Of a stretch of 64,000 nt of DNA, positions 12,681-64,000 are shown piece after piece. The notes below the pieces were generated by a model. The model searched no databases. It was not told the origin of the DNA and saw only the letters and a list, made by a program, of their open reading frames with translations. Numbering within the stretch: position 1 is the first letter of the stretch; each line of letters begins with the position of its first letter. The stretch comes from Diphasiastrum complanatum (Eukaryota; Streptophyta; Lycopodiopsida; Lycopodiales; Lycopodiaceae), in the NCBI GenBank assembly GCA_029204225.1, contig CM055100.1:65753812-65817811 (forward strand), in the 5' to 3' direction. Made by a program: the position numbers and the translations under genes.

Positions 12681-15102
<2,422 letters not shown>

Positions 15103-36017: not shown

Positions 36018-36078
<61 letters not shown>

Positions 36079-36894
36079 TATTAATGTCTTTTCCATGCCA
36101 AAAGGCATATAAGACTAATGAAGTACATGTCAAGTATATGATAACCATGGGAGCGTATAAAATGTCTCCAAAACTGTAATAAAGAAAACATCTAGTGCAA
36201 ACTAAAATAGACACGTATGCGAGAGTATGTGTGCATAATAATCTTATGTATCCATGTCAAGATGTCAAGACTGTGCTGATGCTGCTGCTGTAGAAAGATG
36301 TAATGCGAGCCGCAACATGAGAAAGCATTGGAGCCTGCTGGTGTCGTCTATGAGCATGAGCATGCGTAGTAATAGTACGTCTTTGTAATGTCTAGTGATC
36401 CTGGCGGTAACGTGATGATGGGAAGTACACTGTCTATGATCTCTATGAGCATGTAAGCAGCTATCATCCTCATCGTCGTCATAATCCTCATCCTCGGGCA
36501 CTAAATCACGTGATCTCCGCCTAATAAAGAAGGAAGTAATCAATGGCTGTGAGGTAAAATGCTGGGATGTCCCGTATAGATCTCTCTTCAATATGAACAT
36601 CTCGCGTACCATCAAAGCGACACATCGTAGGTCCTCATAGGCTATGAGAGAGTGTAGAGTGGTAGGCTTGTCTCGAAAGAAGCAGTGATATCGCCCTCTG
36701 ATCTCGTAGTATACAGGGCATCTAAAGATAAAATGCTCCTCAGACTCCACCTCACCTAGAGAGCATAATTGGCAATACCATGGAACCTCCTAGTCTCAAT
36801 AGCTAGCTGATGAGAAGACATCTTGAGTTGTCCCCGTGTGAATCTGAGGCAATGTGATAGTCCCGAATCCAAGTAGCGTGGCATGACCGGGGTC

Positions 36895-36955
<61 letters not shown>

Positions 36956-39900
36956 AAGAAAGAAAGCTTTATTAACGTCTTTTCCATGCCAAAAGGCGTA
37001 TAAGAAAATGAGTACAACAAAGTAAATGGAACTCGGACGGGACAATGCCGTCAACAGAAAGCTAAACTAAAACGTAAATCGCTATGTAAAAAAACTCATC
37101 TCTCGTGCAAGAGAGGAAATAAATGACTGTAGCTCAAACATCTCTCACGTAGGAGAGGGAGAAGAATCTGAAATTTTAAGTTCTACAATTTTAACCAAGA
37201 CCGGGTGTCCATCTCGAAAGAGAGTCCGGAAATCGTTGGCCTTAGCATCTGCGATAATTTTTTTTCTCTCTGTCCATTGAATGGGCGTCAAGTCTTCATC
37301 CATACAAACAATAGATCCCTTCAGTCAACCTCTTTTACGTAGAACCTTTTGACGAAGCAAAGCATCTTTGAAACGCAGAAACACTGTGGTGGATTGGAGC
37401 TTACCCACCCAAGCAACAGATACGACATCCTCTTTGAGACCAAAGGTGGAATGAATGAAAGCATTTGCCTCAGCCACGAGGTCCTTACTCGCAAAAGAAG
37501 CTCCCCTAACCTTGACATTGAGGGCCTTGAGATCTCGTTTTTGATGTTCTTGAATAGATCAGAAATAACTTGCTTAGATCCCTTGAGCACGTTGGCCCAA
37601 GAACTCTTCGATTGCTGAAATTGCTGCTCCAAGGAGTGACTTTATCATCAAGCTTGGTTCTTACCTTATCGGCAATGAAAGCATAAGCCGTGCACCAAAG
37701 ATGCGAAAGTGAGAAACAATAGGCTTCTTACCATACCAAACTTCATAAGGAGTTAATACCTTCAAGGCTTTAGTAGGACACCGATTACTAATGTATGCCA
37801 TTGTTATAACTGCTTCAGCCCAAAACTTGTGAGGTAGGCCCTTTGCCTTGAGCATGCATCGAGCCATCTCCATGATCGTGCGATTCTTTCTTTCGGCAAC
37901 ACCATTTTGTTGAGGTGTGTAAGGAGTTGTCATTTGATGATGGATACCTTTGCTTTAAAGATAAGTACCAAACATATTCTTTATATATTCCCCTCGATTG
38001 GTGTGTAGGATCTTCAAAGAGTGCCCAAATTGATTTTCTATCATTGCAGAAAATCCTTAAACTGTTGAAATACTTCAGATTTTGCCTTCATAGGATAAAT
38101 CCATGTAAATCTAGAAAGGTCATCAATAAAAGTAACAAAGTACTTACACCTTCCAATGGATTCGGTCCTCATTGGACCACACACATTACTATGAACCAAA
38201 TCGAACTTGCCACTAACTCGAATAGTTCCATCAATTGGAAAAGCTTGCCTTTGAAATTTTCCAAGTATGCATCCTTCTCATACATGTCCTTCGGGATGCT
38301 CAATATTAGGAATGTCTTCAGCCATATCGAATCTCTTCAACATCTTCAAGCTAGCAAAGTTGATATGTCCAAACCTAGCATGAATGTGCTCATAAGATCA
38401 ATAAGGCATGAGATTCTATCATCAGGCGTCGTAGGTAAGCTCCCATAATTCAGCCAACTCCAAAGAATGTGAACCTGATGCAACAAGACAAAAAGATGAT
38501 GAAGCTCTTCGCTCATAGATATCCATAAGGAACAATCCACCACGGAATGTTCCCGAAGCGATGATCATAAGAGATCTCTTTGGGTCTTTGATAAGACATT
38601 TGTCTTCTTTGAATTTCACAACCAATCCTTGGTTCATAATTGTAGAGACCGAAATGAGATTCTTTTTATTTTTGGAACATAAAGTACATTATGAATGTAC
38701 TTCTCCTCACCATTGGGTAAGATAATGGGGATCACTCCAATACCTGCAATAGGATAAGAGGTGTTATCAACACCTTGAACTTTGCTTCCATCATGCTCTT
38801 TTACAAGCTTGGTGAAGACTTCTTTGTGATAAGTCCTATGGCGTGTGGCACCGCTATCAATCACCCAATCAATAGATGAAAAAACAGCAACTTGTAAAGC
38901 TGAAGATGAGCTGTTTTCTGCTGAAAAACCAGCAAGATTTGAAGCGGTAGAAATCTCATCTTGAGGATAGATGAGATTATTAGTGACAAAAGCATAATCA
39001 TTATTGAAAAAATTATCCTCCTTTTCAAATTGTTGTTCCAAAGTAATGATTGCGGTACTTGTGTCGTCACTTTTCTCTTTTTCATTTGCAAGCCTCATCT
39101 TACATTCTTTGATGTGAGGCCCAAACTTCTTGCAATAGTGGCACTTACCCTTCTTCTTGGAGCCTTGATCTTGAGCTTCCTTAGATTTTTGATCACCTTT
39201 GGAAGTGTTGAAAGAAGGCTTCCCTTTCCACTTGCCTTTGCCTTTGCCTTTTGCAAAATAAAGCTTGATCTTCTTGTTCACCAAAGTTGATCCTTGTTTG
39301 CTCTTCTTGAAGAAGTAAGCCAACAAGTTCGTCGAAGGAGATTTGCTGTCCCCTAAGAGAAATGCTCAATGATGACACAAATGGAAGGTAAGAATTAGGA
39401 AGAGAGTTGAGAATAATAGATACAAATTGTGAGTTCTCAATCACCTCATCAATACTAAGAAGCTCCTCTCGAAGATCCTTGATCTTCGTCAAGTGGTTTG
39501 TAAGCAAATCACCTTCTTGCATCTTCAAGATAGAAAGTTGATTTCGAAGATATACCACTTTTGCCACATTCTTTACTTGAAACATCTTGGCAAGAGTCTC
39601 CCAAGCACTTTTGGAAGTCTTGCCACATAGGTCTTTTTGTCTCCACCTTGTTGTTCCAACTTCCCTTTGTTCTTCCATCTGTCTTTGTTGGTCCCCTATG
39701 CTTGTTGATCATGATTTTACCTTTGATTCGACTTCCTCTTAGGCTTTGATTGTTTCTTTGGCTTTTCTTTGTTGTTGTAGAGGGCTTGGTGTTACGAGCT
39801 CGTAACCAGTGCCGAACCCTAGAGAACACAGATAGGTTAGATACCATAGTCAGGGTCGTGTCCAGCGTACATGACCAACAGGGCAAGACAGTGTGAGTAG

Positions 39901-42900
39901 TGTGCCCAGCACGGTCCATAGCTATGGCGGGCCTAACACAGCCTAGGGACCCTGTCAGCAGGATAGGGCCCCCAGTTGGGTCCCGACGTGCAGTCGGCCA
40001 AGTCAGTGCCACGTGGCCGACACTTGGCAGTAGCATGCTACCAGTCCTCACACTGGGCTAGGAGGGGCTTACTCTATATGAGGGAGTAGGCAAGGTTGGG
40101 TGGATCAGTTATTGTTTGCCCTACTGTGGTGTTAGGAGCTATTACACTGGTATCAGAGCCATCTCCATTCTAGGGAGTTTAGGAGCAGCAGTAGAGAAAG
40201 CTATCAGAAGATAGGAAGTGTTTCTCAGGTTCTCAGAAAAGATTAGAGGAGGAGAATCGCTGTAGGTGCAGCCTTCAAACCCTTGAAATTCACTGAGAAT
40301 TTACAGTTGAAGGAAGTAGAATTTCTTCTGTAGGTAAATCGCTGGAAAGGCAGCAATCTATATCAGATTTCAGACATCTGATAGGAGATTTTAGAAAGGA
40401 TTTAGAGTAGAAACCAGCGAGCAGGTCCATCGTTGTGGGATCAGACATCTACCTCTGAAATTTCAGAGAAATCCAAGGAAGTTTGAGGGGTTTTCAAGCA
40501 AATTTTCTTAGCAGGGCCAGCGCTGGACAGGGAGGTGAAAAATTGGTTTTTCATCACTGTTTTTGAGAATTTTTCAATAGTTTGAACATCAAACTAGATT
40601 GCCACATACCAGCGACCTACTACTTGAAGTCAAATCAGAGTTTCAAGCAAGTTTTGGGCCTTAAATTTTAGAAAATTGGGCCAGACAGGTGGCTGTCCAG
40701 CCAGCGAGGGTAGAAATCAGAAGTAAATGAGCCAATTGGGTTGCAATCAGACCAGCGAGCTACTATCCTCAGAGAACCGGGAAATTTGGCACCGTTTTGA
40801 AGCTTCAAACTGGCATTTTTCGGGACAGCAGGTCTGAAATCTTGGGGAAAAGAACTGAAAGGGTTCCTCTTCATTCTTTCTTTGGAAGTACAGTCCTCAG
40901 AAACAGCTAAGTCGTCTTTCCTTTCCCTTGTACAGTTGTAAATTAGTCTTTTAGACTTTTTTTCCTTCAGAAGTTAAGGTAACTCTCTGTCAGTTCCGAA
41001 AATGACCACTCCTCAGGGACCTGATCAACCCCAGGAGAGAGGCTTCGACGAACTTGAAACAGAAGCCTTGGCTTACAGAAAAGGGAAGGAACCAATGGAA
41101 GTGGAAGAACAGGAACAGTTCGCCGAAGAACTCGACGAACTGGTTACCAAGGAGCAGTTTCTCCAATTGGTAACAGAAGTGGATGAACTGAAGTTGGCAT
41201 TAGCCAATTTCAAGTCCAGTGTGGACGACTCGTTCGCTGAACTCAAAAGCTTGATTTTGAGTTCCGCGAAAGGAAGCCTTCCCTCCACTTCTCAGTTATC
41301 CCCTTCTCCACTTCCATCGGTTTCGGGTGAGACTTTACGGTCTCACCCCAGTGTTTTTAAAGATTTAAAACCTCCTACTTTTAATGGGGAAGAGAAGGAT
41401 AGAAATGCAGATATTCTACAAACCTACCTCAGCAAATGGAAGAACATTCATGCTCTTAAACAGACCCCTGACCATTTGCAAGCAATTGAGGCCAGTCTTT
41501 CCTTAGGGCCTATGGCCTATAAGTGGTGGTTAAATCTCCAGGAGACTGGGCAGACTCCCCGGTCATGGAAAGCTTTTGAAGAAGCTTTCCTAAGAGAATT
41601 TCTACCAGAAAATGAACTGGATAGAGCCTGGGAAGCCTGGGAAAGAACAGTAATGGATAAATCCCTCATCCAATATATCTCGCAGTATCGAGAAGCAATT
41701 TTAAAGATTAAAAATATGGATGACTATCAGAAAATCAGGGGATTTGTCCGTGGCCTCAAAGATGAATATAAAGTAGAGGTCCAGAGAAACTCGCCTACTA
41801 CCCTTGAGCAAGCTCTCAGATATGCTCAAATCTATGATGATTCAGTGGGTAGAAAGAAGGCGAGACAACAGCCACTTTCTGAGCAGCCTTCTCAGAAAGA
41901 CTTTCAATTTAAAAAGAAATTTTTAAAAAGAAAGAAAGAAGACAAATTCAAAAGTGAAGCTCCTCAGAAACGCCCTTCACTCATACAGCCCTTAAAACCA
42001 GATGATTTTGAGAAAGCCAAACAAGAACGTTTGTGCTTTGTGTGTATGGGCAAGGGACACACAGTCAGACAGTGTCCCAAGGGGCCTTTCACTAAAAAAG
42101 ATAAGAAAGATAAAAAACAAGTTCATCTTGTTCAGACTGTATGTTTCCCCAGTGACTCGGCAGCTTCCGAGATCAAAGTGTATTATGAAGATCATGAACA
42201 CTGTTGCCAGCTGACCTCTGCAATGCTAGCGAGACCCTTCAGCTTTGGGCCGCATGACCTAGTACGTATGCATGGGAAAGTTGGTAACCAGTCAGTAAGA
42301 GTCATGGTTGATGATGGGGCAACCCATAATTTCATCAACCACACCCTGGTTAAAAAGCTTAAACTACCAGAAGTACCTAGTCAGCATAGGTACATAGTTT
42401 CATTAGCTAAGGGTGAAGATAAAAAAATATGGGAAACTATGGTAAGTAAGTTAAATCTTGGTATTCAGGGGTACCAAGATGAAATAAACTTTCAGATAAT
42501 GCACCTGGATCGAACAGACATTGTTCTCGGGAGAGATTGGCTCTACAGTTTAGGACCTTCCCTCCACAGAAACTATCAGGAGAACACCCTCAGCTTTCAG
42601 CATAAAGGCCGAGAGATCCAGTTGCATGGGGAGCATGATGTTCCCAACAGCCCTATGGTCTGCAGTTCAGAGCTCTGTCAGCTAATCGGAGACGAAGACC
42701 ATCAGGTATTCTTATGTGACTTTCAATTTATTCCTGAAGTTTCTATTTCCAGTTCTATTCAGCAGAAAATCAGTAAATTAGAAACTTTATTGTCTAAATT
42801 TAAAGATGTTTTTCCTGAAGATTTGCCACATGGTTTACCACCTAGCAGAGAGGTAGATCATGTAATAAACCTAGTACCAGGTACAGCACCTGTTTCTAAA

Positions 42901-45900
42901 CCTCCGTATCGGGTCAGCCGAACAGAGGATGAAGAAATAACTAGGCAGTTAACAGACTATCTTGGGAAAGGCCAAATTCAGACCAGTAGTTCACCATGGG
43001 CCTCACCAGTCCTATTGGTGAAAAAGAAAGAGGGGTCTATGCGTCTTTGCGTAGATTACAGAGCCCTCAATAAAGTCACAATCAAGAATAAATACCCTAT
43101 GCCTCGGGCAGACGAGTTGTTTGATCAACTCGAAGGGGCTAAGTTTTTTAGCAAAATAGACCTCAGATCGGGATATCATCAAGTCCGTATAAAATCGGAA
43201 GATGTCTCGAAAACAGCTTTTAGGACTCGTCACGGTCATTATGAGTTTAAGGTGATGCCATTTGGGCTCACAAATGCTCCAGCTACCTTTATGACCTTGA
43301 TGAACAGTGTCCTCAGACCATACTTGGGTAAGTTTGTAGTCGTATTTTTAGATGACATCCTCGTCTACAGCAAAACGAGGAAGGAGCATCTAAAACACCT
43401 CAGAAAGGTGTTTCGACTGCTCAGAAAGCATAAGCTTTATGCTAAACAATCCAAGTGTGAATTCTTCGTTGAAGAAGTAGCATATTTGGGTCACATTATC
43501 TCTTCAGATGGGATTAAGATGGACCCAAATAAGGTTAAAGCCATACTCAGTTGGCTGAGACCTCAAAATATTTTGGAACTTCAGATCTTTCTTGGTTTGG
43601 CGGGATATTACAGACGATTTGTCAAGGAACATGCTCAGATAGCAGTTCCCATGACAAATCTTCTTAAGGGGAAGGGAAAGGAGTTCATTTGGGAGTCCGC
43701 ACAACAGGAGAGCTTTGATGCTCTCAAAACAGCCTTAGCTACAGCACCAGTTTTAAAAGCCGTCGACCCCCGATGCTAGCGACTTTGCAGTAGGTGCTGT
43801 GCTAACTCAGGGTGGACGACCAGTTGCGTTCGAGAGTAAAAAACTCGAGCCAGCTCAGACTAGGTACAGTGCCTATGAAAAGGAACTCTTTTCTATAGTC
43901 CATGCCCTTAAGACTTGCAGGCATTATTTGTATGGTGCCAACTTTGAGGTCCTGACAGACCACGAGAGTCTCAGATACCTTTGCAATCAACCTAAGCTTA
44001 GAGGTCGGAAAGCTCGTTGGGCAGAGTTGATGCAAGAGTTTGACACGTCTATCCGATATAGGCGTGGAAAATTCAATACAGTGGCAGATTCCCTTAGCAG
44101 AATGCCTATGATAAACGAGCTAAGTTTTACTCAGATTCGTAATGAGTTACTCGAGTCCTTGAGAGGGAAATGCCAGCATGATGCATTCTTCTCTATTATC
44201 TGGAACTCAGTCCAGAACAAACAGTTACAAACTCCAGAACCAGTTCCCGGGGCTGGTGCCAGTTCATCCAAGAATACGGCAACTTCCGTTGAGGATGATG
44301 ATGAGTCTGAGTATACGTCGTCAGATGACGTTGAGGATTCTGAGCCTGTATTACCCAAGCAAACCCAAGTGGTTGAGGGTCAGTTGACTCGAGGATTCAA
44401 ATGGAAACAGTACTCCATTCAGGATGAGTACTTGCTCTATAGAGATAGAGTATGTGTCCCCAATTCATAGGATTATAGGCAGCAGGTCCTATATGAATGT
44501 CATGACAATCCTAGTGCGGGACACCCAGGCATACAGAAGACCTATGAGCTTCTTCGTAGGCAATTTCTCTGGCCCAGGATGAAAAAGGACGTCCACCAGT
44601 ATGTAACTAGTTGCCAGAAATGTCATGTAAACAAAGCAGAGCGTTTAGAGGCAGGAGGGTTGTTGCATCCCTTAGAAATACCAGCTGGTAAATGGGAGAG
44701 TATCTCCATGGATTTTATAGTAGGCCTGCCTAAATCCCAAAAGGGTAATGACGCTATATGGGTCACAGTTGACCGTCTGACCAAAATGGCTCATTTTATT
44801 CCGACCAAAACAACCGTTAGAGCTCCAGAGTTAGCGAGGTTGTTTGTAGACGGGCTATTTAAATTGTACGGTCTACCTTCCGGCATAGTCAGCGACCGGG
44901 ACAGTAAATTTACTGGGAATTTTTGGAGGGCAGTATTCCATCATCTCCATACTAAACTTAATATGAGTACCACCGACCATCCACAGACGGACGGTCAAAC
45001 AGAAAGGGTAAATCAAGTGCTGGAGGATATGCTTCGTGCATACGTCAGCAAGAAGCAGACTAATTGGGAGGAGTATCTCTCGATATTAGAGTTTGCTTAC
45101 AACAGTACCAAACATTCAGCTACGGGATACAACCCATTTATGCTGATGTACGGTTTTCAGCCACGCTCACCTACAGCTGTAGGGTTTAAACAAGAAAAAG
45201 TTGAAGCAGCCAGAAACTTTTTAGAAGACCTAAACCAGATGATAGAACATGCTAAGCGTAGCATTAGACAATCCCAGGATCGAGCCAGGCATTATGCAAA
45301 TCCACACAGACGGGATCTGCAGTTCTCCACTGGTGAGAAAGTCTACTTGAGAGTCCCAGTTGACTCTAAAACCCTCAAATCAGGAGTGTGTGCTAAGTTG
45401 TCTCCAAGGTATTGTGGTCCCTTTACCATCAGTAGGAGACTAGGCGAGGTCACCTATGAACTAGAACTCCCACACAACAGTAAGGTTTTTCCAGTCTTTC
45501 ATGTAAGTCAGTTACGAAAAGCCTTAACCAGATCAGGCAATCTGGTAGGGGACAGTGTTCTAGTTCTCCCATTGGATCCTCAACAACCTCCACATGAACC
45601 AGAGGAGATTCTTGATAGTAGAGAGACGCAGACTCGTCATACTCTATACCGAGAATATCTGGTATAAGTGGAATGATCAGCCTGTTGAGAATGCCACTTG
45701 GGAAAGAGGCAGCGTCCTTCGCAAGATTTTTCCAGACTTTGTCTTAGAGGAGCAAGACGGTTCTTAAGGGGGAGGGAGTGTTACGAGCTCGTAACCAGTG
45801 CCGAACCCTAGAGAACACAGATAGGTCAGATACCATAGTCAGGGTCGTGTCCAGCGTACATGACCAACAGGGCAAGACAGTGTGAGTAGTGTGCCCAGCA

Positions 45901-54900: not shown

Positions 54901-56767
54901 TACGTTCTTTAATCTTCTATTCTTCTCGCTGATTGTCATTTGCTTTTTAGTCAACACTGGGTTTACCCAAGAGAATCCTGATTCTTTCGAAACCCAGTTA
55001 GCAACTTATGCTTGGCCAAATTTTCTTTGTTTATTGAATTCTATATTATTGTTTCGATTTAGATCGTTTGACTTTTTGGGTTCCACGTATATTGTTTCTA
55101 AGCTTTAACCACATGACATCACTGACTGTTCAATTAAATTTGTGAAATTGGATATATTCTAATTTTGCAAATAGATACATCTGCCTGAATTTTCTTTTCT
55201 TGCAAGAGTAGGGCCCCTATAGTCAGTTCGGGCCCAAGGAAGATTCTTGGAAAGTTGCACATAAATCTTCCACAACTCATGACATCATCATCATGCACCA
55301 CCATCACAACCGCTTTCATATACATGTCTCGGAATGCCCTTACAGATTTTTACCTATTATATAGTCTGTTTCATGGTCGTTCTTGCAGGTGGGCTCCTTA
55401 GTAGTTTCTCTTTGACTGGTTAGTCATGATTTCCACTTTATGCTTTAGTTATGTTGCATTTTTATAAGCTTTTACAATTTTTTATCAAAGATATTTTCAT
55501 GCTCCTGAGATGTACTTGAGATGTACTTCTAGTCTTATATACCTTTTGGTACCCAAAAAGATATTACCTCAGGACTATCTCGTGGGCTTCGGTTTCTACT
55601 GGGCCAGTTCCGAGTTTCTTCATACTAGTTGGCGATTGAGACTGGACGCTTTCAAAGGTACCCCGTTAGAGGAGCGGCTTTGCCAATTGTGCTCATTATC
55701 TATGGTCGAGTCCGAGGAGCATTTCCTATTTATATGTCCAGTTTACTATGAGATTAGAGGGAGATATCACTGCCTTTTTCGTCAGTCACTAGTTGCACTG
55801 CGGTCCCTTATCTCATACAAGGACCCCCGTTGTGTGGCACTGATGATATGTGAGATGTCCCTCCTGCGACAAGACCTATGTCAGACAGCTTTGCATACTT
55901 ATCCAGCCACCCAGTCTCAGATTACATCCTTCTTCTATTGAAGAAGATCGTGTTCTGATACAGACATGAATGACAACGATTGCGACGACAAAACCAGACC
56001 TAGGACGCAGAGACGACACACCACCCAGCCTCAGTCGACCACGAGAGCTACACGTCCCATTATGAGGGGCCCTACTTCCCAACGTACACCAGAGACAACA
56101 TCCAACCACCCATGCAGCAGCTATTCCTATCACATCATTTTTCACAATCCGCATTTGACCTAGGTCTTTCAGACCTTCGTATTGCGGCTATAGTACTCAT
56201 GCTAGTCATTTACATTCAGAGCACATTAGTTTCTCTATATGTACTTTTTATTTCGTATTACTTGGAGTTGTTACACATGCTCCCTCTGTTACCACACTTC
56301 ACATGCATCTTTTAGTCTTTTTGTGCATGTCCATTTTCAACGATGCTAAGGATAATAAACTGTATGCTTTTATTTAGTCACCGTTTCTTTTCTATACAGG
56401 GAACTACCAAGCCTTCTGACTGAGCTTTCGAAGAACTTCAACACTAAAAATTTTCTCTCTCTGTTCCTGGACACACTCACGGAACATAGGTTGGTCTCAA
56501 GATTTCCAATTTTCATCCTTTTCAGCTTCTGCCTTTCTCATTTTCCGCTTTTTTGTGTTATGGAGACTTGGCTTTATTAACAGTATTCTTATTATCCCTG
56601 CAGTGTGATTCATCAACACTATGAACAAGTATTTGCTAATATAATCAGAATTGTTCCTATGGAGAGCCACGTGGAGTTGATTCTTTCTCGACTCATGAGG
56701 CTTGCATTAAGGAAGGAAGCAGAGGAGTTGGATTGGACGAAAGCAATCAAAATTGGGAATGAATCAA
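31262..56767 (+). CDS. UTP10: U3 snoRNA-associated protein 10 / HEATR1, N-terminal exons 1-9
   Basis: Exons 31262-31421, 33641-33854, 34110-34205, 34370-34487, 34611-34781, 35052-35222, 51065-51120, 56400-56489 and 56604-56767 join in phase to 413 codons plus one base. The start [13 protein letters not shown], then [29 protein letters not shown] and [16 protein letters not shown], match the N terminus of plant UTP10; [19 protein letters not shown] follows. UTP10 is a large HEAT-repeat protein of the small-subunit processome in the nucleolus, needed for early pre-rRNA processing. The family is about 2000 residues long, so most exons must lie beyond 64000. Introns 6 and 7 (15842 and 5279 bp) are filled with transposons, yet no exon shows a stop. 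Exon 9 could also end at 56782, which would add SKSWA-type residues. Confidence 0.9.
32022..32900 (+). pseudogene. LINE-like ORF1 end and ORF2 start in UTP10 intron 1
   Basis: A 116-codon frame (32022-32372; [17 protein letters not shown]) is followed in other frames by text reading [18 protein letters not shown] and [12 protein letters not shown], which resembles the C-terminal part and zinc knuckle of DUF4283-type LINE ORF1. Near 32810 [10 protein letters not shown] resembles the start of an endonuclease domain. All parts are short and broken. It is unlike the CT-tailed LINE family of this window. Confidence 0.35.
32985..33145 (-). repeat. copia LTR fragment, inverted relative to 48.1-48.4 kb
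   Basis: Reverse-complement similarity to about 48172-48345: shared words AGGAGAATTGCATAAGCAC, TTGTGAGGCAAGCAC and AGTCTAGGTGTCAACC. No primer site or coding region is attached. It lies in UTP10 intron 1. Confidence 0.6.
35607..35990 (-). pseudogene. Ty3-gypsy reverse transcriptase scrap
   Basis: The minus strand reads [27 protein letters not shown] and then YNFLDNF, the pattern RVCVDYRKLNKAT..DHFPLPFIDQ..L...YYCFLDGF of gypsy RT. Later text is frame-shifted. It is about 110 codons at most and adjoins the tail of a LINE module. Confidence 0.7.
36020..36898 (-). mobile_element. CT-tailed LINE, ORF2-type unit A, 5'-truncated
   Basis: On the minus strand the unit holds only the C-terminal end of ORF2 (36265 to about 36890), then a 3' untranslated part, the hairpin ATGCC-TTTT-GGCAT (36095-36108), TTAATAAAG and a (CT)n tail (36020-36075). 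Its 5' edge meets the tail of unit B. Such 5' truncation is usual for LINE copies made by target-primed reverse transcription. Confidence 0.85.
36265..36890 (-). pseudogene. LINE ORF2 C-terminal zinc and PIP-box region, unit A
   Basis: Minus-strand text: [26 protein letters not shown], then a shift, [25 protein letters not shown] (zf-RVT type H-x4-C part), then [15 protein letters not shown] (Q-x-x-I-T-S-F-F at 36526-36549), an acidic run [11 protein letters not shown], a His-rich linker, and ITSFY (36290-36304) in another frame. The first Cys pair CQLCSL lies just before a frame break. Confidence 0.75.
36899..37635 (-). mobile_element. CT-tailed LINE, ORF1-type unit B, 5'-truncated
   Basis: The minus strand carries the C-terminal half of ORF1, a 3' untranslated part sharing words with that of unit D (GGACAATGCCGTCAA / GGAGCAATGCCGTCAA), the hairpin module (36986-36998, one stem mismatch), TTAATAAAG, a CTTT run and a (CT)n tail (36899-36951). 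Its 5' edge cuts a copia integrase at about 37640. Confidence 0.8.
37160..37635 (-). pseudogene. LINE ORF1 C-terminal domain, unit B
   Basis: Minus-strand text: [10 protein letters not shown], then in another frame [46 protein letters not shown], a stop, [22 protein letters not shown]. It aligns with unit D ORF1 (SWADVLKGP, ALNVRVRG, GTTIYLDEDLTFIQ). The domain is like the RNA-binding C-terminal part of L1-type ORF1. One shift and one stop are visible. Confidence 0.7.
37661..37933 (-). pseudogene. copia integrase fragment
   Basis: Minus-strand text [24 protein letters not shown] (catalytic Glu) and [21 protein letters not shown]. It ends at a stop shortly before the LINE junction. Further integrase and pre-integrase words lie in broken frames up to 38640. 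Confidence 0.85.
38634..39678 (-). pseudogene. copia gag, zinc knuckle and protease
   Basis: Gag text [20 protein letters not shown] and [12 protein letters not shown] (39640-39200) leads into a basic linker, a zinc knuckle [14 protein letters not shown], and the protease site [10 protein letters not shown], followed by YIHNVLYVP. One frame change occurs near 39300. The catalytic Asp of protease is intact. Confidence 0.85.
39790..40146 (+). repeat. Gypsy 5' LTR
   Basis: 357 bp. Bases 39791-39806 form a perfect 16 bp palindrome (GTTACGAGCTCGTAAC). A G-box CCACGTGG lies inside; in the 3' LTR it reads TCACGTGG. Confidence 0.97.
40148..40160 (+). other. Gypsy primer-binding site, tRNA-Met type
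   Basis: TGGTATCAGAGCC one base after the left LTR. Confidence 0.9.
41002..45766 (+). pseudogene. Gypsy gag-pol polyprotein, three lesions
   Basis: From ATG 41002: Gag capsid region (about residues 130-260), zinc knuckle [14 protein letters not shown] (about 347), aspartic protease [13 protein letters not shown] (434; Asp-Gly context DDGA where DSGA is usual), RT with VDYRALNK and [11 protein letters not shown] (about 780). One extra base in a C-run near 43768 throws the RNase H start [11 protein letters not shown] out of frame and gives TAG at 43777. The next frame runs through RNase H to a TAG at 44468, then through integrase: zinc [30 protein letters not shown] further shift at 45664 separates the C-terminal YLVKWND...ATWE, a chromodomain-like end. 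Confidence 0.93.
45766..45778 (+). other. Gypsy polypurine tract
   Basis: AAGGGGGAGGGAG directly before the right LTR, the primer for plus-strand DNA synthesis. Confidence 0.9.
45779..46135 (+). repeat. Gypsy 3' LTR
   Basis: 357 bp, two C/T differences from the 5' LTR, at element positions near 50 and 235. Confidence 0.97.
46167..46661 (-). pseudogene. copia gag, upstream part
   Basis: 164-codon minus-strand frame: [57 protein letters not shown] then a stop. This is the UBN2-type Gag of copia elements. The N terminus lies in other frames upstream ([22 protein letters not shown] near 46920-46850). Beyond the gypsy insertion the text continues as [19 protein letters not shown]. Confidence 0.8.
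47579..47590 (-). other. Primer-binding site of minus-strand copia
   Basis: On the minus strand TGGTATCGGAGCC follows the LTR directly, a tRNA-Met site with one change. Confidence 0.75.
47591..48057 (-). repeat. 5' LTR of minus-strand copia
   Basis: 467 bp; on the minus strand it begins TGTTGGAACG and ends CTACA, and the primer site abuts it. No second copy was found in the window. Confidence 0.75.
48085..49005 (+). mobile_element. copia LTR, primer site and gag fragment
   Basis: An LTR ends in AACA at 48412, followed by TGGTATCAAAGC. The gag part is reduced to its end: broken frames give [17 protein letters not shown] and the zinc knuckle [14 protein letters not shown] (48768-48810), then [14 protein letters not shown] of protease with a stop. 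At about 49005 the text switches to another copia on the opposite strand. Confidence 0.7.
49005..49930 (-). pseudogene. copia RT end and RNase H, minus strand
   Basis: Minus-strand text in several frames: [100 protein letters not shown] (RNase H), [19 protein letters not shown]. Several stops and shifts. No LTR follows. Confidence 0.8.
49931..51064. other. Intron 6 end, no recognisable gene
   Basis: AT-rich intron sequence with no supported coding frame, ending at the acceptor TTTTTCAG before UTP10 exon 7. Confidence 0.6.
51544..54190 (+). pseudogene. hAT-type transposase (DUF659 and dimerisation domain) with AT-hook tail
   Basis: The start is Gly/Ser/Ala/Gln-rich and contains five GGGGC units at 51624-51650. 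The DUF659 part (52079-52800) reads [21 protein letters not shown] and [18 protein letters not shown] with a frame change between. [20 protein letters not shown] and VVEVL text follow. Probable introns lie near 53013-53119 and 53262-53362. The hAT dimerisation end reads [27 protein letters not shown] (53540-53620). After a stop the C-terminal tail (53744-54136) is acidic, then basic with [13 protein letters not shown], an AT-hook-like motif. Terminal inverted repeats and the 8 bp target duplication were not located. It sits in UTP10 intron 7. Confidence 0.85.
54191..55500. other. Intron 7 sequence, no recognisable gene
   Basis: AT-rich, short frames only. Confidence 0.55.
55510..56158 (+). 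pseudogene. LINE ORF2 C-terminal fragment, unit F (plus strand)
   Basis: A 143-codon frame with [27 protein letters not shown] (zf-RVT C-x2-C ... H-x4-C) and QSQITSFF (55912-55935), then TGA at 55939. After a shift the second motif PITSFF lies at 56126-56143, followed by a stop at 56156. No terminal hairpin or CT tail follows. It is the only copy of this family here in the sense direction of UTP10, about 240 bp before exon 8. Confidence 0.8.
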
Positions 56768-56859
56768 GTAAGTCTTGGGCAAGTTTTTCTGTATGAACAC
56801 ATTTTGACCAGAATGTTGGTTGATTGTGATTGATAATTTCCTTTATCAGTTAAGTCTTT

Positions 56860-56880
56860 GGGGGGGTGGGGTGGGGGGGG
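56860..56880 (+). repeat. G-run with quadruplex potential in UTP10 intron
   Basis: Runs of 7, 4 and 8 G separated by single T, about 90 bp after exon 9. Four GGG tracts with short loops are possible. Confidence 0.7.
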
Positions 56881-57628
56881 AATATTCCGTTTACTATAAG
56901 ATGTTCAGGCCTATGTGCCTGGAACCTGGAAATGTCAGCCTTTTATAAGTTCCGCTTTTGGATTTCCAAGGTTTTGCATGCTGTTGCTTGTAACATCTAG
57001 ATACGGTAGACCAGTTCAGAACTTGCCCAACCAGTAGAACGAACAAGCTTTTCTTTCAATAGATTCATTACTGTTAGATATGACTTCTCTTTCTTTCTTA
57101 GAAATATTCTTTGATCCTTTTGATTTGAGATCTTCCCCCACTATCTTTGAAGGGTGAGCATAGGCAAAGCTGTATGAACGAGCTGGGGTATGTGCCACAA
57201 AGAGCATTTTGACGGTGTTATCTGCTAAGTACCCCTGAGTGAAGTAGTCACTCTCTAGGAATGATCAACTTGGACATTATTTTGGCTCACAAGTGACAAG
57301 GTTAGGACTGCTGCAAAGTAGATTATTGTGCAGGTGATAATAGTGGATGCAGCTTCTATACCCGGGAGCCCCGAGCTCCTATTGTGAAAGGAGGTCGAAA
57401 TATCTCGGTTTGCCATCGATAAACACAACCCTTTGTCCTTTTTCTTTTGCTTCGTGGATAATCTATTTTCTTGCCAACCATTGAGATCATCCATATAAAT
57501 GAAGGTGCCTTTAAGCTTTGCCCGAAGCCGAAGGGTTGCATTGCGTTGTTGAAGAGAACATGGTCATCAAATTTACTACGCCATGCAGTATCGAAACCAT
57601 CAGCAACATGAAATAACTTGAAAACGAG

Positions 57629-57679
<51 letters not shown>

Positions 57680-57899
57680 TATTAACATCTTTTCCATGCC
57701 AATAGGCATATAAGACAAAAAGTACATATCAAGTGTGTGGTGCAAATAGGAGTGTGTGAAATGTCTCCGATAACAATAAAGAAATCATAAATGAAGTGTA
57801 GCTACTAAAAAACACCATCAAGTAGCTAAAAATGATGGGGGTGTTGGTAAATATGTATATGCTCGTAATAGAGTCATAAAGAATCATAAAGCTCCATCA

Positions 57900-58560
57900 A
57901 TCAACTCTTGCTGCCACTGAAGAAAGATGTAATGGGGACTATAGCTGGAGGTAAGGTGTGCTGATGACGTCATCCTCGTCTAGGAGGTTGTTAGCATAGT
58001 GTGTGTCTCCTTATATCAATGATCCTACGAGCAATAGGAATCTGGGTGATACGCCGTCTCACGTTTGTGTCGGGAGTCATCATTAGTCTCACTATCCTCT
58101 GACTCTGGATCATGCCATGATCTCCTACGAGAAAAGGAGGTGATCTGGAGCTGTGTGTCAAGGTGACTAGACTGGACTGGACTGGACTAGACTGTCAAGG
58201 TGACTAGACTAGACTGGATTGGCTGATGTGGATCCTGTCACAGAATTAACATCTCTCTGATCATGAGTGCCACACAACGTGGATCCTTATATGCTATGGT
58301 CGATCGTAGAGTGATGGGTGCATCTCAAAAAAGACAATGATATCTTCCTCTGATCTCATAGTATGTTGGACATCTAAATAAGAAGTGCTCCTCGGACTCT
58401 ACCTCGGATAATGAGCACATCGGGCAAATCCGCTCCTCTCGTGGTGTACTGTGAAAGCGTCCAGTCTCAATCATAAGCTGGTGTGATGAGACTCAGAGCT
58501 GACCCAATATAAACCTTTGACCATGAGATAATCTTGAATCCAAATAACGTGGTAGAACTT
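57900..58560 (-). pseudogene. LINE ORF2 C-terminal zinc region, unit C
   Basis: Minus-strand text: [92 protein letters not shown] (58130-58153; one Phe lost from the motif), and ITSFFSGSKS at the C terminus (57919-57933). A GACTG/GACTA repeat lies at 58164-58215. Confidence 0.75.
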
Positions 58561-58928
58561 GAAACCCTACTGTATCCAACTCCAAGAAGTGAGTTCGATT
58601 AAAGTCGGGTTTGACTCCAAGGTGGCCCTACTACACTCGACTCAGGTATGCTCGTAAACATTTGATGTAGTCATGGGTATCTGATGGAAGGTCCGTGATA
58701 GAAATGCCAAATGTGTCAAGTAAACAGGAGGCTTGAGAAAACCATGATAATTGGAAGCCCTGACTGTGAAGATGCTGAGATGAGATAAGCACTGCCTGTG
58801 TATACCTTTGCTCATCCAATGGGAATAACCTGACTTTCTGAATATAGCTGATAAGTCGAAAAATGGCATCAAGCTGAATGGGTGGAACTACAAACTCAGC
58901 TAAAATGATTTGATGTGGAATGGACAGC

Positions 58929-59477
58929 TTAGCCCGTATCATATGTGATAGCATAAGGATCTGCATGTGAGATACTGGCCCAATCAGATGAGGAGAGACC
59001 TGTACACCTTGCCTGTGCTGCATATAATGTGGTAGGGGAAACAAGAGTATCAAAAAGCCGACACTTACTCAGGGCATCCCGAATAAATCTTCGAAAACAG
59101 AACCTCTCTAGTTGTACCAGGGAAGCATGTCCTTTCCCAACTCTAGCTGTAGCAGCCAGTCTCATAGCAAATACGGGACCAGTGAAAAGGACACCTAAGT
59201 AAGTGTAAGATGATACAACCTCCAGTGGCTGTCCGTCAAAGATAAGCTCCTGTCGATGCTTGAAAGCCCTAGATGTATTGAAGACCATAACCTTGGTCTT
59301 CGCAATATTAACCCCCAAACCCCATCTGGTACAAAAAGCATGAAGACTGTCTAACTGTCTCTGTAAGCCCTCTCTAGTCGGAGAAACTAGAGCCACATCA
59401 TCTGCATAAAGAAGGATGGCAATCAGAATGTTACCAAGCCTGCAACCTGTATCACCGCACTGCTCAATGACTCTCAA
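58929..59477 (-). pseudogene. LINE RT palm-thumb fragment, unit C
   Basis: Text GNILIAILLYADDVALVSPTREGLQRQLDSL (YADD box), GVNIAKTKVMVFNTSRAF, SSYTYLGVLF. The upstream RT part (as in unit E: FVDFRKAFD, GVKQGCSLSPILFGLYIDELE) is absent; endonuclease text joins RT at about 59474. A later region (58929-58640) continues in other frames. Confidence 0.85.
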
Positions 59478-60450
59478 TCAGCTTGTGTTTCCAATGGGCT
59501 ATCATGGGGAAAGTGTCTTAGTAAGGAAATGAGGGCCTCCTGGTATTTCTGGATATATGTGTGAGTGAAACTATATCTGGGTGCACGGTCAATGAAGGAA
59601 TGCGCGGGAGATGCTAAGGGTAATATAGAACCCAAATGGAAAGACATGAAAGAGTGGTCGGAGAGAGTAGTGGGAGAATTTGGAAGTCTGATATCAGTAG
59701 GATAAGCCCATGAGGTAGTCGTTGACACTATGTCCGCCCTTGTGGGGATGGCACGTGTAGCTGCTCGAATTATGCCAACAAGCTAGGCCATTATAAATGG
59801 CTAACTCACGGGCTTCGCCAAGTTGCAACAAGTACTCTCCATATGCAGTGATAGGTCCATGTGAATTAGCTGAAATCTTAGTAACTCCCATATCATCACG
59901 ATCAATGGCTCGTATACGTAACTGATCAACAACATCATGAAAGTTGACCTATAGCGTAGCAGTCTTGGCATTAAAGTCGCCAATGAGAAGAACATGCCCT
60001 CGATCAACAAATCTGATAATATTTGCAGAAAGATCAGCGTATGGAGAACCAATGCCCTCCACAAATGAAGAGGAATCTGGGGGGAAGTAGCAAGCTGCAA
60101 TAAAGAGATCCTTGTCCAAGCTAATATTGCGCCCTGAGAGGTGAACCCAAATATAACGTGCATGTTCATCATGCATGATGAACTCTATAGCTGGATGTAA
60201 TGTCTCCCTGTATAAGCATGCCACACCATCTAAACCTTTGCCACTCATTGCTCACATCTCTGATCGATATACTGAGTCCCTTCTATATCCTGGAAATGTA
60301 GGCAGTCCTCTAATCTGGCTCTCATGTGTCTCGATAAAGAATAGAATGTCTCTCCCTGTAATGAAATCAACAAGGTCTCTAGCAGTGGAAGACGAGTGTA
60401 TACCATTACAACTTGTAGGTGAGATCGTCATCCATGAAAATTCGTGTTAG
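59474..60450 (-). pseudogene. LINE ORF2 endonuclease domain, unit C
   Basis: Minus-strand text in shifting frames: SCNGIHSSSTARDLVDFITGRDILFFIETHESQI (catalytic Glu region), GLDGVACLYRETLHPAIEF, LFIAACYFPPDSSSF, HVLLIGDFNAKTA (metal-binding GDFN), LSDHSFMSFHL (SDH motif near 59660). This is an apurinic-type endonuclease/exonuclease/phosphatase fold used to nick the target. Stops lie near 60240 and elsewhere. Confidence 0.8.
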
Positions 60451-60521
60451 GTAGTGAAGGTGGATGAGTGGGCGGAAGGTGGCTGATAGTGAAAGAGAGA
60501 AAGGAGTGATCAGGAAGGGTG

Positions 60522-60523
<2 letters not shown>

Positions 60524-60558
<35 letters not shown>

Positions 60559-61970
60559 AGCTTTATTAACGTCTTTTCCATGCCAAAAGGCATATAAGAC
60601 GAACAAGTACACCAGAAAAAGTGAACCAAGACGGAGCAATGCCGTCAAACAACATAACTAAAACCAAACTAACTAAGAAGAGGATAATGTCTAGGATTCT
60701 ATGGTACGAAGACCATTTATAGACTCAACTGGCATCTCTTCAGTACTGTAACTCTCTCACTAAATCTGAACAATCTCAGATATCTCATTAATAGCAGCAG
60801 GTTTAATATCTACAAAACAAATGATACCATCCCTATAGATCAGCCGCTTTCCATTGGTTAGAGCCTCCTGTTTTACCTTTTTCTGTTCTTGAACCTGAAT
60901 GAAAGTAAGGTCTTCATCCAAGTATATCGTAGTGCCCTGCAGTGTAGATCTCTTTCCTAGCACTTCATGACGACCTGTTGCAGATGCAAAGCCTATGACA
61001 AGAGTACCTGGGTCTTTCTTAGTTCGCCATGCCGTATCCATATCATTGTGGTGGTGCTGAAGATTCTCTTCAAGAAACTTTTTAGCTTCACCAACAGCAT
61101 CATGGGAGTTCGTAATACCTCTGACTCGGACATTAAGAGCCTTTTGCTCTCGCAAACGGCTCTCTATGAACGTAGCTGAGATATATGAAGGTGGAGGTGG
61201 CAGAACAACAATATTAGGACCTTTAAGCACATCTGCCCAGGATCGGACAGCGGTATGATGCTGTTCCACTTGACTTTCAAGCTGTTGGATCTTAGCTGAA
61301 GTAGTCGAATGAGAGGAAGCTTCGATTTTGATAGCCGTAACTTCTTTCTTGCGATCATCGATAGGCGAATCTAGTTTTTGAAGATGAGATTGCACAAATT
61401 GGATCATAGCTTCAAGAGAAAGAAGTTTTTTTTGATGGTCGTTGAGATATTCATATGAATGTAACTGATCTACACGAATGACAGAGATCATAAAGGCTGG
61501 AGGCACAGGTGATTCCTCTTCTGGGGTATTCGGGGTCAGAGGGTCGGCTATAATGGATTCACTATTAGCAAGAAGAGGATCAGATGGAGAGATAGGGATT
61601 GCAACTGGAATAGAAGGTGAAGGTGAAGGTGGATCGAAGGTAGATGCGATGGAAGATTCAGATGTGATGCCACCTGAGGCAGGTACGATGGCAGGAGCAG
61701 GAGCAGGCACAAAAGGCAGACCTGCGATGGAGGCAGATTTCGGGCCAGCAAGGCGAGACTCAAGAATGGAGGCGGAGGCTTCAGGACCTGCGATGGAGGA
61801 GGCAGAGGCTTCAGGACCTGCAATGGAGGATGCAGGGCACGGTTCAGGGCCAGCAGGGTGCGGTGGAGGATGGGGGGAGTTATCTCCCCCCCGCTTACGT
61901 GGAGTTATGCTGAAGATGGAGCGCTGGCAATAAAGCACCCAGCTAGGCAGCCATCGCGGCTAGACAGCCA

Positions 61971-61974
<4 letters not shown>
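60524..61974 (-). mobile_element. CT-tailed LINE, ORF1-only unit D
   Basis: The minus strand holds a complete ORF1, about 170 bp of 3' untranslated sequence, the hairpin (60580-60593), TTAATAAAGC and a CT-rich tail (60524-60560). No ORF2 text lies between ORF1 and the tail. The 5' edge meets the tail of unit E at 61975. Confidence 0.85.
60760..61938 (-). CDS. LINE ORF1 protein, open 392-codon frame
   Basis: ATG at 61936-61938 on the minus strand, stop at 60760-60762. Residues 20-150 are rich in Pro, Ala and Ser (repeated AGPEASASI units) and likely disordered. Residues about 160-230 (SYEYLNDHQKKLLSLEAMIQFVQ, IQQLESQVEQHH) look like a coiled coil. The C-terminal domain has SWADVLKGP, KALNVRVRG, LVIGFASATGRHEVLGKRSTLQGTTIYLDEDLTFIQ, as in L1-type ORF1 RNA-binding domains. 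The layout coiled coil then RNA-binding domain is that of L1 ORF1 proteins, which coat element RNA. It is uninterrupted, unlike the ORF2 regions nearby. Function is inferred by layout. Confidence 0.75.
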   Translation of the reverse strand: MLYCQRSIFSITPRKRGGDNSPHPPPHPAGPEPCPASSIAGPEASASSIAGPEASASILESRLAGPKSASIAGLPFVPAPAPAIVPASGGITSESSIASTFDPPSPSPSIPVAIPISPSDPLLANSESIIADPLTPNTPEEESPVPPAFMISVIRVDQLHSYEYLNDHQKKLLSLEAMIQFVQSHLQKLDSPIDDRKKEVTAIKIEASSHSTTSAKIQQLESQVEQHHTAVRSWADVLKGPNIVVLPPPPSYISATFIESRLREQKALNVRVRGITNSHDAVGEAKKFLEENLQHHHNDMDTAWRTKKDPGTLVIGFASATGRHEVLGKRSTLQGTTIYLDEDLTFIQVQEQKKVKQEALTNGKRLIYRDGIICFVDIKPAAINEISEIVQI

Positions 61975-62034
<60 letters not shown>

Positions 62035-62221
62035 TTTATTAATGTCTTTTCCATGCCAAAAGGCATATAAGACCAAATGGAGTACATGTCAAGTATGTGA
62101 AAACCGTGGGAGTGTATATAAACGTCTCCAAGAAAAAACTATGCATAAAAGAGAAATGAACAACATAACTATAAATTACAAATTGCCAATTGTCCATATA
62201 GCTGCCAGGAGTAGAGTAATA

Positions 62222-62887
62222 TCATGTAGTGCTACTGCTGAAGAAAGATGTGATACGAGCTGCAACATGAGGTAACATGGATCGTCGCTGACGTCGTCTA
62301 GGAGGGTGAAAACTGTGCGCGCTCGTAACATGGCGTGAAGTGCGAACTGCAGCATGACTATGAGTGATACACTGTCTCTGACATCGGTGAGGTGGTGTGT
62401 CATCGTCATCGTATTCAGACCGTGTCCGTCTCCTGGTGAAGAAGGATGTAATCTGAGCCTGAGAGCTAGGATGTGGCTGGTTAGCTGACTGGTACATATC
62501 CTGGCGCAGCAAGACCATCTCTCGTAGCATAAGTGCGACACAACGAGAGTCCTCATAATTAATCAGTGCTCTGAGTGTAGTAGGCATGTCACGGAATAGA
62601 CAGTGATATCTCCCTCTAATCTCATAATATATGGGGCATCTGAAGATGAAATGCTCCTCGGACTCTATCTCATGAAGGGGACATAGCAGGCATAGTCTCT
62701 CTTTTCGTGGTGTACCCTGGAATCTACCTGTCTCAATAGCCAGCTGATGGGAGGAGACTCTAAACTGTCGTACGGTCGAGATATGCTCTGTATAAAAAAC
62801 ATCTAATATACTGGTGTGTACCCAAAGGGAGATCAGTGATAGTGATACCAAATACTTCCATGAGAGTGTGATGCCTGAGAGAACCAT
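62222..62887 (-). CDS. LINE ORF2 C-terminal region, unit E, open to natural stop
   Basis: Open minus-strand frame: [54 protein letters not shown] (zf-RVT C-x2-C ... H-x4-C), SRCVALMLREMVLLRQDM, SQAQITSFFTRRRTR (Q-x-x-I-T-S-F-F, 62438-62461), EYDDDD, an Arg/His-rich linker, then AARITSFFSSSTT and stop. QAQITSFF matches the PCNA-interacting-peptide consensus. The frame is the least damaged of the four C-termini; upstream text (63056-62888) is in another frame. Confidence 0.8.
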   Translation of the reverse strand: MVLSGITLSWKYLVSLSLISLWVHTSILDVFYTEHISTVRQFRVSSHQLAIETGRFQGTPRKERLCLLCPLHEIESEEHFIFRCPIYYEIRGRYHCLFRDMPTTLRALINYEDSRCVALMLREMVLLRQDMYQSANQPHPSSQAQITSFFTRRRTRSEYDDDDTPPHRCQRQCITHSHAAVRTSRHVTSAHSFHPPRRRQRRSMLPHVAARITSFFSSSTT

Positions 62888-63300
62888 GATAGCCTGTATC
62901 CCTGAGTCTGGAGGTGATGAGAGGACATGAGTGCAATCTGCGTATACCGCCTCTCTGTATCAGGAAGTGCCTGAGCTCTCCGGATGTACGTGATGAGCTG
63001 GAAGGCTGCCTCAATCTGAATAAGGGGGGTGGCAAACTATGCAAGGATGATCTCATGTGGAACCAAGGGCTTCGCTCGAATCATGCGAGCTAACATGGTA
63101 GTCTATAGGCGTGAAATGCTGGACCAATGTGAGGATGATAGTCCTGTACACCATATCTCTTCCACATACAATGCTGAGGGGGTGACGATGGTGTCAAACA
63201 GTCTGCACTTACTCAGGGCATCTCGAATAGACTTACGGAAGCAGAGTCTCTCCAGCTGGACTAGGGAAGAGTGGCCCTTCCCAAGTCTAGAAGTAGCCGC

Positions 63301-63995
63301 CTATCTCATACTGAAGGTAGGACCAGAGAAGAGCACACCCTGGTAAGTGTACGAAGAGACCACCTCTAGGGGTTGTCCATCAAAGGTAAGCTCCTGGCGC
63401 TGCATGAAGGCCCGAGAGGTATTGAAGACCATAACTCTGGTCTTCGAGAGATTCACCCCTAGACCCCACTGAGTGCAAAAGGTGTGTAAACAGTCCAACT
63501 GTCTCTGTAATCCCTCTCTGGTATGGGAGACTAGTACCACATCATCCGCATAGAGGAGGATGGCAATCAGAATGTCCCCAAGCTGACAACCGTCCCCACC
63601 GCACTGAGAGATGACCTACTCTAGCTCGTCAATATATAATCCAAAGAGAATTGGTGAGAGAGAGCATCCCTGCTTAACCCCAATAGTGCTCCAGATCCGC
63701 TCAGATATGCCACTACCATGACGGAAGCAACCCAAAACCCTCTCATAGATGACAGCTAGGATAATATCTGTAGAGAAACCCAGGTCTCGAAGTCTCTGGA
63801 TGAGTAAGGAGCGCGGGACATCAAAGGCTTTTCTGAAGTCCACAAAACAACAGTAAACCTTTTCTCTCCTGTGTCTAGTTTCCTCAATGAGGGCTCGAAG
63901 TGTGAATATGTGATCTGTAGTGGAATAATGTGCACGGAACCTTGCCTGACCCAAAGCATGTAATCTCCTGGACTCTGCCTCTGAGGTAACTGCAT
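63301..63995 (-). pseudogene. LINE reverse transcriptase, unit E, partial
   Basis: Minus-strand text: FRAHYSTTDHIFTLRALIEE, YCCFVDFRKAFD (catalytic Asp), GVKQGCSLSPILFGLYIDELE, then after a stop near 63616 GDILIAILLYADDVVLVSHTREGLQRQL (YADD), GVNLSKTRVMVFNTSRAF. It runs off the window edge. Confidence 0.88.
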
Positions 63996-64000
63996 ACTGG

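Follow-up and report, generated by a model that had tools for sequence, protein, structure and literature searches.

How do units that carry only the first or only the second open reading frame (ORF) of a long interspersed nuclear element (LINE) come to share one 3' end? The question is raised by 64,000 nucleotides of Diphasiastrum complanatum (GenBank assembly GCA_029204225.1, contig CM055100.1, positions 65,753,812 to 65,817,811), hereafter the window, where eight units of one LINE family lie head to tail in three clusters (E|D|C|G, X|F and B|A). On the minus strand the order is E(ORF2)|D(ORF1)|C(ORF2)|G(ORF1) and B(ORF1)|A(ORF2). We consider it probable that these units belong to a CT-preferring, L1-like LINE whose full elements carry both ORF1 and ORF2 and end in a single 3' hairpin module, accompanied by a HAL1-like, ORF1-only partner that would use its enzymes in trans.

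The initial annotation reported five copies of a common terminal module, and these were recovered at their places by a pattern search. The 41-base module occurs five times in the window, always on the minus strand, four times with no mismatch and once with one; the pattern was matched in none of 100 dinucleotide shuffles. Identity over the module is 0.90-1.00 for all ten pairs among these copies. In the window's own genome (1.745 Gb), the 32-base core of the module (at most three mismatches) was found 7,863 times and its reversed control not once. The genome sample analysed in detail consisted of exact-match modules from part of one contig.

The predicted fold of the module has two stems, an outer GUCUU/AAGAC and an inner AUGCC/GGCAU, with a UUUU loop. 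Fold z-scores were -2.4 to -4.4 for A, C, D and E, and only -0.9 for B, -1.0 for X and -0.3 for a homologous module in contig L002, which is binned with an uncultured Trichormus genome. Trichormus is presumably the Azolla symbiont, so L002 is perhaps fern DNA. The same contig has an RT-like stretch on the opposite strand (3501-4200, minus), perhaps from another LINE. In an alignment of seven module copies, 92.8% of the cells are paired and there are two double-sided pair changes, one in X and one in L002; the pairing and the double changes were each matched by 7 of 500 shuffles, and a control in which the alignment was slid by +2 or +3 columns also yielded one double change. A covariance model built from the seven copies found those seven again in the window and L001-L006, and nothing further with E < 1 in the same sequences. 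A search of window positions 35000-64000 against Rfam gave no match. By its pairing, its double changes and its L002 homologue, the module has the attributes of the conserved 3' stem-loop of Stringent-type LINEs.

Upstream of the module the units separate into two types of 3' untranslated region (UTR), as originally proposed. Units A, C and E carry parts of ORF2 and have the first type; B and D carry ORF1 and have the second. In the interval from -70 to -30 upstream of the hairpin, pairs of the same type are 0.72-0.80 identical and pairs of different types 0.53-0.65 (shuffled pairs averaged 0.58, with a best of 0.68 in 100). From -130 to -70 the two types are indistinguishable by identity. A GACGG...CCGTC hairpin inside the second, ORF1-only UTR is common to D (60630-60645) and B (37036-37052), both on the minus strand.

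Elements with both reading frames were found outside the window. In 20 genome stretches around the first module places listed (19 of 10 kb and one of 9 kb), eight stretches hold nine elements in which ORF1 homology is followed by ORF2 homology and then by a single terminal module (L017, two in L019, L021, L022, L023, L024, L032 and L033). Every ORF2 part tested was matched in L017, L022, L032 and L033; the remaining five are internally deleted. A full element measures about 5 kb, its 5' end being approximate. An ungapped scan that allowed up to 11 of 41 mismatches found no module between ORF1 and ORF2 in any of the nine, the best match of their spacers to the 18-base module core had 6-9 mismatches, and the spacers contain no CT run of five units. 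Because these nine elements have one module each, A, C, E and F of the window are most plausibly copies of two-ORF elements that are incomplete or truncated at the 5' end. A reading based on the window alone, with separate ORF1 and ORF2 units as the rule and every copy in tandem, was dropped after the genome stretches.

The protein evidence places the family among L1-type LINEs. The Pfam domain RVT_1 was found in ORF2 of E and C, relatives of ORF2 carry PF03372 and PF00078, and the relatives' endonuclease aligns to unit C. The CCHC motif was read as a pattern, Pfam zf-RVT appearing only below its cut-off. ORF2 thus has the APE-type endonuclease, reverse transcriptase (RT) and CCHC of an L1-type element. 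Its named relatives are from the fern Adiantum nelumboides and also from Taxus and Klebsormidium. As regards the L1 clade in the strict sense, one relative (P0001) matched R2 chains of the PDB (E 1e-24 to 1e-17) no less strongly than L1 chains (E 6e-18). At the end of ORF2, after the CCHC, lies a motif resembling the PCNA-binding PIP box, QxxITSFF or QxxITDFF (36265-36789 and 62222-62959, minus; 55468-55941, plus). Among 120 relatives listed (P0002-P0025), 17 have a CCHC followed by 90 residues or more; the motif is present after the CCHC in 14 of these and before it in none of the 17, and 0.16 times on average in shuffled ends. The PIP box of human L1 is described between endonuclease and RT (PMC10830420).

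ORF1 of D had no Pfam match, and protein searches with ORF1 found no sequence relatives among the candidates sharing short words, which alone were scored; the viral contigs searched yielded no relatives. The ORF1 proteins of D and B are 37-39% identical. An AlphaFold2 model of D ORF1 from two-sequence input (mean pLDDT 51) predicts long helices, an RRM-like fold and a small C-terminal domain, and its top PDB match in Foldseek was human L1 ORF1p (2yko, E 1.9e-4). This low-confidence model suggests the coiled coil, RRM and C-terminal domain of an L1-type ORF1.

Our analyses indicate that CT tracts are a preferred insertion target. The 5' start lies at the end of a CT tract in 16 of 41 module-ending segments and 20 of 61 LINE segments overall, compared with 298 of 6,600 random positions (4.5%; binomial p 1e-11 for 16/41). 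Four of the 16 starts (L017, L026 and window units D and C) were set by their own reference cut, and 12 of 37 remain without them. Microsatellites are thus found at 5' junctions above chance, as in microsatellite-targeted LINEs. Site specificity is not strict: 25 of the 41 starts are away from a CT tract, some of them possibly homology limits. Near the module, (CT)6 or longer was present within 75 bases in 38 of 49 cases and in 222 of 5,000 random windows. The tails before CT often open with TTTC repeats (21/49) or TTC repeats (7/49), and little or no CT is present on the right side of L016, L039, L040, L042 and L045.

A hand-picked list of 16 5'-side CT tracts was inspected, and the 110 bases before each were checked for the module. 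Seven proved to be plain microsatellites with no preceding module (L020, L026, L027, L030, L031, L042 and L045). Four other tracts were dropped from this list: that of L017 (2992-3058), which has similar text on both sides and may lie inside the element's 5' region, that of L036, 62 bases from the homology start, that of L028, which may follow a decayed module, and that of L023, where a module is only partly inside the 110-base frame. Since 16 of 41 segments start at CT against 4.5% of random positions, plain microsatellites included, insertion into CT accounts for most cluster junctions. Since many starts (25/41, and three of four in L048-L056) lack CT, it is a preference and not a requirement. 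The (CT)n, which the initial annotation had taken for a simple-repeat tail, consists for the most part of target DNA and is more than a tail. At approximately 13895-14042 of the window (minus), a plain CT then CA microsatellite without a unit of the family represents an empty potential target.

The ORF1-only elements were examined through a single-base variant of the module. Among 100 exact modules listed, 13 read GACG (G-variant) and 87 GACA (A-variant); all 13 of the former, including L026, and 29 of the latter (20 in L015-L034 and nine in L048-L056) were fetched. The second UTR type was present in 11 of the 13 G-variant modules, L039 and L043 having the first type, and in none of the 29 A-variant modules (28 of the first type by script, and L029 left undecided by the script but of the first type by eye). 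With unlisted neighbours added, it was found in 12 of 14 G-variant modules and in 0 of 36 others. ORF1 homology stands just upstream of the UTR in nine of the 11 second-type loci, L042 and L045 retaining the UTR only, and none of the 11 has ORF2 between ORF1 and module. L026 and L044 have a common 5' end directly after CT, with CT also after the module; unit D likewise begins at CT, but its first bases align poorly with these two. These elements (D, L026 and L044) are 1.35-1.41 kb long and have their own 3' UTR. ORF1 without ORF2, an own 3' end and independent insertions, seen in 11 of the 13 G-variant loci and in L026, are the attributes of a HAL1-like element. At L050 (1-121) a piece of D-type ORF1 is fused directly to full-element ORF2 sequence with no module or CT between, and at L038 (987-1284) a D-type ORF1-only unit adjoins an ORF2 RT fragment directly, without CT.

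Ratios of nonsynonymous to synonymous change (dN/dS) were estimated by NG86 for seven ORF1 sequences, skipping codons with stops or gaps, and ranged from 0.30 to 1.04 over the 21 pairs. Among the five longest (D, L026, L040, L041 and L044) they were 0.30-0.51 in nine of ten pairs, the exception being L026-L044 at 0.74; pairs with L038 gave 0.51-0.75 and those with the short L036 gave 0.53-1.04. In a tree of 23 ORF1 sequences, eight D-type copies are split from all others with support 100 and a long branch. The two-ORF group, which comprised the nine named elements together with L015 and L034 (ORF1 followed by endonuclease) and L031 (no ORF2 recognised after it), clusters in 11 of 12 cases with support 91; the twelfth member, L019b, groups with B, L037 and L035 (support 88). 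Because of these groupings, the ORF1-only elements represent at least two old lineages or have more than one origin.

Several explanations compete with a full LINE and an ORF1-only partner. The initial annotation had suggested that the family is split between an ORF1 RNA and an ORF2 RNA that complement each other; on this view no element would carry both. No unit of the window has both ORFs and the module is common to both kinds, but the nine elements that combine parts of the two ORFs with a single module make this very improbable. The same low standing applies to its other suggestion, a single element with an internal module copy between ORF1 and ORF2: the succession of D then C, and of B then A, does give the order ORF1-module-ORF2-module, but the nine spacers contain no recognisable module or CT tract, and L026, after its ORF1, module and CT, shows no ORF2 match in 2.4 kb. 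A third explanation, which we regard as unlikely, is that the ORF1-only elements arose recently by deletion from the full element and that their ORF1 is free of selection. Nonautonomous deletion derivatives are common among LINEs, the higher dN/dS values (L026-L044 and the pairs with L038 or L036) fit this explanation, and the grouping of B-type copies with the two-ORF element L019b allows more than one origin; the fully supported split of the D-type copies on a long branch and the low dN/dS in nine of the ten pairs among the five longest sequences speak against it.

Clusters could also arise by template jumping, in which the ORF2 protein copies one RNA and continues on a second within a single insertion; template jumping is described for L1 ORF2p (PMC10830420). 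Truncated 5' ends of units adjoin the 3' ends of others, and CT is missing from the X|F junction. Starts at CT are, however, also found at plain microsatellites with no unit before them (L020, L027, L030, L031 and L042), and the 399 codons of D are free of in-frame stops, by a hand count, whereas C, E and G are broken; for the stop-free D the value is 0.013 against C and 0.056 when only the conserved 243 codons are counted. We judge template jumping an improbable general explanation that nevertheless competes for some junctions, above all X|F.

A full LINE with a dependent ORF1-only partner has its own difficulties. Mobilisation in trans is something we infer. Internal deletions affect five of the nine two-ORF elements, and an intact frame was demonstrated in none. 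The confidence of the ORF1 model is low (mean pLDDT 51), and L1 ORF1p was absent from the 50 rows of a second structural list, which consisted mostly of single RRM domains and held little information on the rest of ORF1. In 25 of 41 segments there is no CT at the start, although homology in some fades before the true 5' end, and among the starts in view in L048-L056, read by eye, CT is present at L052 and lacking at L049, L055 and L056. The X|F junction lacks CT as well, and searches for target-site duplications found no clear duplication.

With these points in mind, the family would work as follows. Full elements supply an ORF1 protein (coiled coil, RRM, C-terminal domain) and an ORF2 protein (APE endonuclease, RT, CCHC and a probable PCNA-binding motif), the RT of which would recognise the 3' hairpin. 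The nicked GA strand probably pairs with the pyrimidine-rich end of the RNA (CU, UUUC or UUC repeats), thereby priming reverse transcription, early stops of which would leave 5'-truncated copies. Because CT remains next to inserted copies, new copies would land beside old ones, and the junctions suggest that head-to-tail clusters grow in this manner. RNAs of the ORF1-only lineages may reach the ORF2 protein through the same hairpin and insert into CT likewise, their endonuclease and RT being obtained from full elements. The ORF1-only partner is probably mobilised in trans by the full element. More tentatively, and somewhat short of an even chance, the ORF1-only lineage may be long-lived, with its own RNA-binding protein under selection, while its endonuclease and RT come entirely from the full LINE; through their common hairpin and common CT target the two would then make up a stable pair, with ORF1 protein working on its own encoding RNA and ORF2 protein acting in trans.

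The observation in the initial annotation is confirmed and its interpretation partly supported. Parasitism of the ORF2 machinery by ORF1-only elements gains anatomical support from the independent units elsewhere and from L026 and L044 between CT tracts, with mobilisation in trans as the conjectural part. Clustering by UTR type showed ORF1-only units occurring alone (second UTR type at 11 of 13 G-variant loci, nine of these with ORF1 just upstream), without clear target duplications. The idea had been set against a genome in which ORF1 and ORF2 lie on one intact element with a single terminal module and ORF1-only insertions are absent; the former arrangement was found, in no case demonstrated intact in frame, and ORF1-only insertions exist.

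The units of the window are arranged as follows. In the largest cluster, on the minus strand, unit E (62033-64000) is an ORF2 copy cut by the window end, with RT at 63999-62836, a C-terminal part to 62225, the first UTR type, a module at 62033-62073 and CT at 61974-62032. Unit D (60560-61973) is an ORF1-only element with an open frame at 61959-60763, the second UTR type, a module at 60560-60600 and flanking CT tracts (61974-62032 and 60524-60559). Unit C (57676-60523) is an ORF2 copy that begins some 90 bases upstream of ORF2; it has endonuclease at 60413-59706, RT at 59468-58250, an internal deletion near 59500, a module at 57676-57716 and CT at 57632-57675. Directly after this tract lies unit G (57385-57631), a decayed, 5'-truncated ORF1 with no module recognised, which scored higher against B (64) than any of 150 random segments (up to 42) or 100 shuffles (up to 44), and likewise higher against D (52; random segments up to 39, shuffles up to 35).

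On the plus strand, X (55529-55580) is a decayed module with the compensatory stem change, and unit F (55569-56370), directly after it, is a 5'-truncated ORF2 C-terminus with a first-type 3' UTR and no recognisable module. In the third cluster, unit B (36966-37636, minus) is a 5'-truncated ORF1 (37632-37148) with the second UTR type, a module at 36966-37006 and CT at 36897-36965; its 5' flank is Copia sequence. Unit A (36075-36896, minus) is an ORF2 C-terminus truncated at B's CT tract, with a module at 36075-36115 and CT at 36020-36074. F (55569, plus) and A (36881, minus) start at nearly the same point of ORF2, to within about 15 bases. A frameshift-aware scan of the window found no further clear ORF1 or ORF2 of the family. 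Elsewhere in the window, a Gypsy-type long terminal repeat (LTR) element (39789-46151, plus; LTRs 39789-40163 and 45778-46151, 98.1% identical) is flanked on both sides by Copia-like frames on the minus strand.

The family would be a plant LINE with a preference for CT repeats and with module copies in the thousands. It provides a natural setting in which to test whether ORF1 protein acts in cis and ORF2 protein in trans, as the ORF1-only lineage keeps a selection signal, and CT seeking would be a simple way for LINE arrays to grow out of scattered microsatellites. In a limited, mostly open-access literature search we found no plant LINE described as targeting CT repeats and no ORF1-only LINE partner in plants.

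Insertion into TC/CT microsatellites recalls the Kibi-type LINEs of fish, reportedly specific to TC microsatellites in work by Kojima and Fujiwara of 2004. In contrast to these, the present family is in a plant and shows a preference instead of strict specificity; it combines an L1-type ORF1 with a conserved 3' hairpin, has module copies in the thousands and is accompanied by an ORF1-only partner. The mammalian half-LINE HAL1 is likewise ORF1-only and needs the ORF2 of another element; here the ORF1-only elements also share a structured 3' module and a CT target with the full LINE, and the D-type ORF1 is split from those of the sampled two-ORF elements. In Drosophila telomeres, the RT-less HeT-A stands beside RT-coding elements such as TART in head-to-tail arrays (PMC5537684), an arrangement comparable to ours, with CT tracts in place of chromosome ends. 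The Zepp and Zepp-like LINEs of green algae also form tandem arrays from 5'-truncated copies nested into existing copies (PMC8226300, PMC3446292); they are described there as targeting existing copies, whereas the present family also uses plain CT microsatellites. Finally, the Stringent-type L1-clade LINEs of plants have a 3' stem-loop that is conserved, shows compensatory changes and is presumed to be what the RT recognises (PMC3747384). Our module is similar in this respect, but its conserved letters differ, and its CT, TTTC or TTC tail contrasts with the poly(A) described for most plant L1-clade LINEs (PMC3747384).

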